From a virus: a DNA stretch of 25,055 bases. Shown here one piece after another: positions 3 through 24,634 of this stretch; position 1 is the stretch's first letter, and each line of letters begins with the position of its first letter. The DNA lies in IMG/VR virus record IMGVR_UViG_3300042691_019716, positions 1-25,055 of that record. One strand, given 5' to 3'. A model generated the notes under the pieces. That model did no database searches. It had not been told where the DNA came from and worked only from the letters and a program-made list of their open reading frames with translations. The position numbers and the translations under genes are program-made.

Positions 3-389
3 CCGATATCCGAATCGCTCCGGCTCCGGCTCATCACCCACCGCCGCGAGCAAAACGATCACCGCATCGCTATGAAGGGCACTTGGTTCGATCTCGGGAT
101 CGTCTTTGCAAACATCGTCGGCCAACCGCACACGCTATCAAACGTGACGAAACGTTTCTTTCGCCCGATCATCGACGCTTGCGAACTCGGCCGCAACCTG
201 ACGCTCTACTCGCTCCGGCATACGTGCGCCACGCTCCTGCTCCTGAACGGCGTCAACCCCAAGATCGTCTCCGAACGCCTAGGCCACGCCAGCGTCACCC
301 TGACCCTTGACACCTACAGCCACGTCAACCCGCACATGCAAGATCAGGCAACTGCTACGATGAATAATATTTTGAGGTTTCGAGCATGA
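3..389 (+). CDS. int: Tyrosine recombinase/integrase, C-terminal part (5' end outside window)
   Basis: Site-specific recombinase that would integrate and excise the phage at a tRNA gene. The reading frame is open to the left edge, so only the last 128 residues are visible. They hold the C-terminal catalytic core: LYSLRHT (Arg at 216-218, His at 219-221), the GH motif (His at 285-287) and the nucleophile in TLDTYSHV (Tyr at 315-317). In the usual HxLRHT box the first His is replaced by Tyr (YSLRHT), a variant known in this family. The box-I arginine must lie upstream of the window. The gene stops immediately before the first 17-bp repeat of the attachment region, and it is convergent with the late genes. 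The ATG at 72 is internal and is not the real start. Confidence 0.93.
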   Translation, partial: PISESLRLRLITHRREQNDHRIAMKGTWFDLGIVFANIVGQPHTLSNVTKRFFRPIIDACELGRNLTLYSLRHTCATLLLLNGVNPKIVSERLGHASVTLTLDTYSHVNPHMQDQATATMNNILRFRA

Positions 390-406
390 TGCACATAAAA
401 TGCACA
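390..406 (+). repeat. Arm-type repeat copy 1 (TGCACATAAAATGCACA)
   Basis: A 17-bp sequence identical to 609-625, in the same orientation. It begins one base after the integrase stop codon. Each copy contains TGCACA twice, 11 bp apart, as expected for cooperative binding on one face of DNA. It is probably an integrase or excisionase site. Confidence 0.8.
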
Positions 407-476
407 CACACCCCAACCCATAACCCTACTCCACGAACTCAAAACCGCCCCAAACCCCCAAAAACCCAAACCATAA

Positions 477-504
477 CCCCCACCAACCCCCAACCCCGAC
501 CCCC
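477..504 (-). other. Potential G-quadruplex tract in the attP P-arm
   Basis: On the - strand this stretch has four G-runs of 5, 4, 5 and 5 (504-500, 497-494, 491-487, 481-477) separated by loops of 2, 2 and 5 bases, which fits the canonical quadruplex motif. The whole 407-505 interval is nearly free of G on the + strand, and further G-runs lie at 459-455 and 451-448. No gene is seen here. Confidence 0.6.
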
Positions 505-513
505 GAAAAATCT

Positions 514-558
514 CTCTTAATCCGCGGGTCGCAGGTTCGATCCCTGCTCGGCCTACCA
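514..558 (+). other. 3' half of a tRNA-Lys(CTT) gene (attP core; not a full tRNA)
   Basis: An anticodon loop CTCTTAA (514-520, anticodon CTT at 516-518) is followed by the 3' anticodon strand TCCGC, variable region GGGTC, a perfect T-arm (GCAGG/CCTGC around TTCGATC, 531-547), the 3' acceptor strand TCGGCCT, discriminator A and encoded CCA (556-558). The bases before 514 do not pair with the anticodon stem and there is no D-arm or 5' acceptor strand. This is therefore the 3' fragment that a phage carries to rebuild the host tRNA gene after integration. Antisense translation of this segment gives the well-known spurious GRAGIEPATRG peptide. Confidence 0.88.
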
Positions 559-566
559 ATAGAATG

Positions 567-599
567 AAGGACTTACGAGCGGTTTCGTGAGTCCTTTTT
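567..599 (+). terminator. Rho-independent terminator downstream of the tRNA 3' half
   Basis: GGACTTACGA pairs with TCGTGAGTCC (one G-U pair) around a short GCGGTT loop and is followed by TTTTT. The T-tract is on the + strand side, so it stops rightward transcription. It would serve the reconstituted tRNA-Lys gene after integration. In the free form it shields the late operon from leftover int transcription. Confidence 0.8.
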
Positions 600-608
600 G
601 ATTTTCTG

Positions 609-625
609 TGCACATAAAATGCACA
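609..625 (+). repeat. Arm-type repeat copy 2 (TGCACATAAAATGCACA)
   Basis: Second identical 17-bp copy, on the far side of the tRNA-derived core and about 24 bp from the stop codon of the last late gene (649). Confidence 0.8.
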
Positions 626-648: not shown

Positions 649-1518
649 TTAGATCGGAGAATCGGTGCCAGGGATAAAGACGCCGGCCTCGTTTGAGTAC
701 GTGAGGTTGCTGGCGTTGCGGACGCGATAGTAAAAATATCGACTAAAAACCGTTTGGTCGATGGCGTGTACGTAGGATGTAGCACTGGTGCCGACGTTGT
801 CAACGATGATCTGCCAGGATCCGGTCAGATTGATCTTGTATTCAACGATGTTCAGCCCTGTGCCGCCGTTGTTTGTCCAAGAAAGGTCAACCCATATATC
901 GACATCGTCATAGACGGCAGACAGCCCGGACGGAGCTGATCCAGCAGCAGCGGTTTCGCCCGACACTGTGTCGCTCAACGTAGTACTTTGCCCTTCGACG
1001 CCGTCCTGTGTCAGGTAGTAGCTATAAACACCGTCGATGCCCGCATCCGTGTCAGTGTATAGCCATGTGTCAAAAGCGGCAGATGTGAGCAGCGTAAAGC
1101 CCTCGCCGTCAATGTCGCGAAAAATATTGATATCGCCGCCGCCGCCGTTCGCTGTGTAAGCAACTTCGATATCAGCATCTCCAACGTACTCGACACGGGC
1201 GAGCGTGGGAGCTGTAGGCGGTGAAAAGGTTACAGATGGTTGTTCGTATAGCGGCTGCCGGTTAGATTCGCCTGTTGCTGATTGTGATTTGCGAATCAGA
1301 ACGATCGGACGTTCTTGCAGGTCAAACGGAACGTTGATCGCACTACCAGGAACGGCTGCACCGAGGCGTTCCAGTTCCATGTCGGGATCGTCCTCGAACC
1401 TCCAAAACACCTCGACCGCATAAGCCGCGGTTTCATCAGTCACCGGCCGAGTTCGGTCGAGAAAAATGCCGCGAGGTACGATGGTTTCGCTGGTATTATT
1501 GCGAATTACGAGGCTCAT
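649..1518 (-). CDS. Tail fibre/tip protein with fibronectin type III-like domains
   Basis: Probably a virion surface protein of the tail tip. The 289 residues start with a short, possibly particle-attaching region (about 1-95). A proline-containing linker (SPPTAPTLARVEY) then leads into what look like two tandem beta-sandwich domains of the FnIII type: about 100-190 (ending GVYSYYLTQDGVEGQ) and about 193-285 (SAPSGLSAVYDDVDIWVDLSWTNN, then YYYRVRNASN). Such domains decorate many phage tail proteins and may bind surface carbohydrate. The start overlaps the stop of the preceding gene by ATGA (1515-1518), implying translational coupling. It is the last gene of the late block, and the attachment site follows. 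Confidence 0.72.
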   Translation of the reverse strand: MSLVIRNNTSETIVPRGIFLDRTRPVTDETAAYAVEVFWRFEDDPDMELERLGAAVPGSAINVPFDLQERPIVLIRKSQSATGESNRQPLYEQPSVTFSPPTAPTLARVEYVGDADIEVAYTANGGGGDINIFRDIDGEGFTLLTSAAFDTWLYTDTDAGIDGVYSYYLTQDGVEGQSTTLSDTVSGETAAAGSAPSGLSAVYDDVDIWVDLSWTNNGGTGLNIVEYKINLTGSWQIIVDNVGTSATSYVHAIDQTVFSRYFYYRVRNASNLTYSNEAGVFIPGTDSPI

Positions 1519-10317: not shown

Positions 10318-10620
10318 TTAAGTTTTCAAATAAAGGACCGTCATTCCGGTTCCGACTTTTGCTTGCCGAGCGATGATGTAGCTGACATCGGCGATCTCGA
10401 CCCGCATCCCGTCTTTGATCAGCGTCAGATCACTGCTTTTGACGACGAACGTCGGACGCTGTGCCTCGATCTCAGTGCCGTACATCACGGCCGCGTCAGT
10501 CGGTTCGGTAAAATCGCCATTGATGCAAACCTCTTTCGAATCCGAGACCCGAAACGTCCCGCAGGTCGTAAAGATCCTGTCACTCAAAATATGGTCAAGA
10601 TCATCACTGAGACTCGGCAT
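10318..10620 (-). CDS. Head-tail joining protein, gpFII-like
   Basis: Connects the filled head to the tail. The 100 residues show the pattern of the gpFII/attachment family. They begin with a short helix (SLSDDLDHILSDRIF), then strands with GTFRVSD and a EIEAQRPTFVVKSSDL segment. The hallmark DLTLIKDGMRVEIADVSYIIARQAKVGTGMTVLYL follows: a SHALE-like GxxxxIxxxxYxVxxxxxDGTGxxxLxL ending. The gene overlaps the 64-residue gene upstream by 17 bases and abuts the tail terminator downstream, the same position as lambda FII (after the capsid, before the tail genes). Confidence 0.83.
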   Translation of the reverse strand: MPSLSDDLDHILSDRIFTTCGTFRVSDSKEVCINGDFTEPTDAAVMYGTEIEAQRPTFVVKSSDLTLIKDGMRVEIADVSYIIARQAKVGTGMTVLYLKT

Positions 10621-13355: not shown

Positions 13356-13373
13356 TTTTTTGGGGTATAAAAC
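13356..13373 (-). repeat. 18-bp intergenic motif, copy 1 (GTTTTATACCCCAAAAAA on the - strand)
   Basis: Identical to 24617-24634, in the same orientation. It lies 6 bases after the portal stop codon, in the only long gap of the head module. In this copy flanking bases complete a GGGGTTTTATACCCC hairpin (13362-13376). It may be a phage promoter or protein-binding site; no function is shown by the sequence. Confidence 0.65.
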
Positions 13374-24616: not shown

Positions 24617-24634
24617 TTTTTTGGGGTATAAAAC
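24617..24634 (-). repeat. 18-bp intergenic motif, copy 2 (GTTTTATACCCCAAAAAA on the - strand)
   Basis: Identical in sequence and orientation to 13356-13373 and, like it, placed about 5-6 bases after the stop codon of the gene upstream and before the start of the next (24640 stop, 24567 start). This copy lacks the flanking GGGG that makes the other into a hairpin, which suggests that the shared part, not the hairpin, is the functional unit. Possible promoter or protein site. Confidence 0.6.

Follow-up and report, generated by a model that had tools for sequence, protein, structure and literature searches.

Positions 390 to 625 of an uncultured virus record in IMG/VR (25,055 bp, classed there as linear; the whole record was analysed and is called the window here) form, with high confidence, the attachment site (attP) of a temperate tailed phage that infects Acidobacteriota, in which both arms surround a single core. 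As an attP it is ordinary and well preserved, of a known kind and common design; its twist is that the tRNA piece at its centre faces the opposite way from that of relatives. The parts of the site and the genes on either side are listed in Table 1.

Table 1. Coordinates of the putative attachment site and adjoining genes in the window
Feature	Position	Strand	Remarks
Tyrosine integrase gene (int), C-terminal 128 codons	3..389	+	5' end cut by left end of contig; stop codon 387-389
Int-side arm repeat	390..406	+	Starts directly after int stop codon; two TGCACA units, 11 bp apart
Spacer, int-side arm to core	407..513		107 bp; 96/107 bases A or C (90%)
attP core, 3' part of tRNA-Lys(CTT), first base of anticodon loop to CCA	514..558	+	45/45 match to host genes
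Intrinsic-terminator-like hairpin, 14 pairs	566..597	+	After tRNA 3' end
Far-side arm repeat	609..625	+	Identical to 390-406
Last late gene before attP	649..1518	-	From ORF list; convergent with int; 23 bp beyond second arm repeat

The integrase gene is truncated at the left end of the contig, leaving the N-terminal domain outside it, and the remaining fragment is recognised as a tyrosine recombinase by PF00589 (E 3.5e-10) and by the phrog_1 integrase family (E 3.7e-22), with the catalytic-domain motifs YSLRHT and LGHAS...TYSH. Its identity to integrases of Acidobacteriota elements is at most 53% over about 120 aa, and a protein search of named phages returned only distant matches for the integrase (<60% identity) and only matches below 60% identity for the terminase. 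The first-pass annotation had placed int on one side of the core and late genes on the other, an arrangement that is borne out: the late genes, among them those for TerL, portal, capsid, tape measure and a J-like tail protein, run on the minus strand from 649 onward. The gene nearest the site has no PHROGs or Pfam family match. Elsewhere in the window, TTTTTTGGGGTATAAAAC occurs at both 13356-13373 and 24617-24634, upstream of minus-strand genes, and is perhaps a regulatory repeat.

The core, CTCTTAATCCGCGGGTCGCAGGTTCGATCCCTGCTCGGCCTACCA, comprises the anticodon loop CTCTTAA (514-520), the variable region, a perfect T-arm (531-547), the 3' strand of the acceptor stem (548-554), A 555 and CCA (556-558) of tRNA-Lys(CTT), of which the 3' half with its perfect T-arm and CCA had been read from the sequence at first pass; ARAGORN found no complete tRNA in the window, which is expected because the core is a tRNA half. 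Identity with the host gene (attB) begins at position 514, the first base of the loop, and immediately 5' of it the window reads AATCT where the host reads GCGGA. Because identity starts there, crossover probably takes place within the loop. Attachment sites centred on the anticodon constitute one standard class (PMC4383910), and like the anticodon-loop (class A) islands in the Islander collection, the window carries a 3' tRNA fragment that starts at the anticodon loop and would restore the tRNA on integration; nothing essential differs, save that the window holds an uninterrupted attP and not one inferred from two ends (PMC4383910). A hairpin is found at the same place as that of the window in other elements. 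An open reading frame antisense to the site (344-613, minus strand), with GRAGIEPATRGL, was discounted, being the familiar false frame that crosses the antisense strand of tRNA T-arms.

The host site predicted at first pass, a tRNA-Lys(CTT) gene whose last 45 bases equal those of the core, was found by an exact scan of about 85,000 species genomes. There were eight matches in seven genomes, all of Acidobacteriota and nowhere else in the scan; in each genome one match forms the 3' end of a full-length tRNA-Lys(CTT) gene (45/45), and the eighth is a second, partial copy in the metagenome-assembled genome (MAG) Ga0077534. All seven belong to one family, of which 112 other members were searched and lack the exact 45-mer; one of the seven is titled Pyrinomonadaceae (NCBI family, class Blastocatellia). 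Four members of this family have relatives of the window's TerL at 45-55% identity, and integrase relatives are present in 44 of its 119 genomes. The host is therefore assigned to one Acidobacteriota family, on the exact attB together with the terminase and integrase relatives. Exact scans of IMG/VR for the 45 bp, and for their first 30 bases, gave no match and hence no further phage sharing this core.

The two arms are exact copies of one 17-bp sequence, TGCACATAAAATGCACA, each with its pair of TGCACA units at the spacing that the first-pass annotation had reported. The repeat is not scattered: no further copy, allowing up to 3 mismatches, occurs in the 25,055-bp record; two such matches were produced by 0 of 100 shuffles, and the 17-mer occurs in only seven other stretches of IMG/VR, in single copy each. 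The two exact repeats flank the core at a distance of 219 bp from centre to centre, inside a span of about 250 bp, as compared to 224-260 bp in four relatives. A survey of 43 loci (the window and 42 relatives with enough flank) took the best 9-base match at a fixed spacing between -15 and +50 of the int stop. At a period of 11, 25 loci, the window included, reach 8 of 9 matching bases, where shuffles predict 0.23; periods of 9, 12 and 13 gave one locus each, and a control region 350 bp further on (+350) likewise gave one. On the strength of this twin near the int stop, the 17-bp repeats are probably integrase arm sites. Variants of GGCACAC or TTGCACA are the commonest unit of the twin in Acidobacteriota relatives, and since the twin stays with int across different tRNA targets, comparison of these loci suggests that the integrase itself reads it. 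At one locus (L003, about 10330-10480) an apparent 5' half of tRNA-Leu follows int on the int strand and is itself followed by a twin, GGCTACAG; this may be an attP whose core comes from the 5' part of a tRNA.

It is unlikely that the TGCACA twins are instead operators of an excisionase (recombination directionality factor). Sites for excisionases are usually clustered on one arm, whereas the twins of the window flank the core on both sides, and a twin stays beside the int stop in 25 of the 43 loci. Direct repeats spaced by one helical turn are targets of such factors too, Apl of phage 186 being an example (PMC7498355), yet the Oenococcus prophages, with the same two-arm repeats, have had these read as integrase sites (PMC8074189).

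Uninterrupted arm-core-arm sites are also present in the sister phage G001 (37,330 bp, with a TerL 80% identical to that of the window) and in L010 and L026. In G001 the order is late genes, GTTGGTTGCAT, a 3' piece of tRNA-Pro(GGG), a terminator, the twin GTTGGTTGCAGGTTGGTTGCA and a convergent integrase, so that both phages have late genes and int converging on an attP. The possibility that G001 has the window's integrase was rejected, there being no BLAST similarity worth counting between the two. From these comparisons the int-attP module appears to be swapped as one block among phages of a single lineage, to which the layout seen in the window appears native; this speaks against two different elements having been joined.

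Because the arm-core-arm order is uninterrupted, the DNA was most likely that of an excised, replicating or packaged phage. Counting against the attP reading are the absence of the integrase N-terminal domain from the contig, the orientation of the core with respect to int, which is opposite to that of twin-arm relatives, and the failure of the contig ends to join. A closed circle, which the first-pass annotation had proposed to look for, was not found, as the first 600 and the last 1500 bases of the contig have no 12-mer in common; the contig is a fragment, and non-joining ends are compatible with a free phage. By comparison with G001, the early region would be missing from the record. A free state is likely, and two other histories would look alike. 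It is very unlikely that the prophage was integrated and that its two terminal 45-bp direct repeats were merged during assembly, with no free form needed in the sample: a read is longer than 45 bp, and repeats of this size can collapse when k-mers are short, but reads of ordinary length span 45 bp, three further elements show the same uninterrupted site, and either history would yield an identical attP sequence. Least probable is a junction of two prophages in tandem at one tRNA-Lys gene, with the int end of one, a shared core and the late-gene end of the other, which would show the same order of parts and has precedent in tandem arrays at tRNA genes (Islander, PMC4383910), but which would make the two the same or nearly the same phage, given the identical 17-mer on both arms, and sits poorly with the same convergent layout in G001, whose gene order is a circular permutation of that in the window.

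As predicted at first pass, integration should separate the two arms by the whole element, and this is what is seen in an island of about 32.6 kb in Ga0077534 (LNEI01000011, 68405-101041; L072 8405-20000, L073 1-20000 and L074 1-1041). A full tRNA-Lys(CTT) gene lies at 68405-68480 and the 45-bp core copy at 100997-101041, while TGTGCAACATTTGTGCA occurs at 68529-68545 and 100860-100876, with no further copy in the 55 kb read. One end of the island thus has the full tRNA, an arm repeat and int, and the other has a second copy of that repeat together with the 45-bp piece. Read in the direction of the integrase gene, both copies have the TGCACA-N5-TGCACA form of the window's arms, and the arms stand at similar distances from the core. 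The island integrase (378 aa) is 49% identical to that of the window over the part they share, and its end adjoins the first TGTGCAACATTTGTGCA copy. The flanks of the island have the same order around an intact tRNA-Lys gene in L055, L058 and L054, with about 2-4 kb extra on the right side of the island. This extra stretch (L074, 1042 onward), from the partial core to the conserved right flank, starts with a terminator resembling that of the window and is possibly a second insertion.

The content of the island is unlike that of the window. It has type III restriction-modification-like genes, that is, a type III methyltransferase and a helicase-like protein with weak matches only to type III restriction enzymes, as well as a protein matching the PADLOC Orf5 and HEC-06 models, and no phage structural genes were found in it. 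It is apparently a defence island using the att core of the window. It differs further in that its int lies beside the restored tRNA gene, on the strand opposite to it.

This difference in orientation extends to the other relatives. At all 23 other twin-arm loci of the survey with a readable tRNA or tRNA piece, it is on the strand opposite int, with int facing the tRNA 3' end, and the tRNA piece of G001 is likewise opposite int; in the window it is on the int strand. The arm distances are also exchanged: from the loop centre to the arm centres the window measures 119 bp on the int side and 100 bp on the far side, as against 98-116 bp and 126-144 bp in four relatives, so that the longer distance is on the int side in the window and on the far side in relatives. 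With both tRNA strand and arm distances swapped, the whole segment between the arms looks inverted with respect to that of L060, L076, L010 and L026 among the compared loci, whereas the direction of the arms with respect to int is unchanged. The case for a core on the int strand being unique to the window is weakened by two less similar relatives (L098 and L105), which have no twin arms at int and in which the 3' half of a tRNA-Cys comes after int on the int strand. The spacer is also unusual, its A/C count of 96/107 exceeding the 73 of the record's second most skewed stretch, and it holds on the minus strand the sole G-quadruplex consensus of the record (GGGGGTCGGGGTTGGGGGTTGGTGGGGG, 477-504), whereas none was found at G008 and G001. 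It is possible, and offered tentatively, that the segment between the arms (spacer, core and terminator) has been inverted, that the phage consequently integrates in the direction opposite to its relatives, with int far from the restored tRNA, and that the A/C-rich, G-quadruplex-capable spacer is part of this changed architecture. Such an inversion would be explained if the phage had integrated at a secondary site and then acquired a new tRNA core in the other direction, and the use of secondary sites followed by abnormal excision has been proposed for Oenococcus phages (PMC8074189).

On the attP reading, the N-terminal domain of the tyrosine integrase would bind the 11-bp-spaced twin sites on both arms, and the arm-bound integrase would bridge arms to core, where the catalytic domain would exchange strands in the 7-nt loop (514-520) with the loop of the host tRNA-Lys(CTT) gene, a site placed by the start of identity. 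Integration would then join the 5' half of the host tRNA to the phage-borne 3' half and terminator, restoring the tRNA, whose transcript the hairpin at 566-597 would terminate; the host's own 45-bp 3' piece would be left at the other end, beside int.

In phage lambda attP, helically phased integrase sites lie on two arms that flank a core. The site in the window would work like lambda attP in its arm-core-arm plan, but its target is a tRNA gene. Closer parallels are the prophage attP sites of Oenococcus oeni, IntA to IntF, of which IntC uses tRNA-Lys and has two ATGCACAACAA-like repeats on each arm (PMC8074189). Shared with these are a core from a tRNA 3' end, short direct repeats on both arms, an attP adjoining the int stop codon and an attP length of about 240 bp (PMC8074189). 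The window differs from the Oenococcus sites in host phylum and in the seemingly inverted placement of its core relative to int as compared to relatives, and the core of Oenococcus IntF excludes the anticodon loop.

An uncultured phage is hereby placed in a narrow host group, the Acidobacteriota family of Ga0077534, by a 45-base exact match, and the complete attP-attB pair could serve as the basis of an integration vector for a phylum in which genetic tools are few. The window and its relatives provide a comparative set that shows arm sites remaining with the integrase gene as the tRNA target varies. Should the inverted core prove real, one could test whether the arms of an intasome tolerate a core in either direction.
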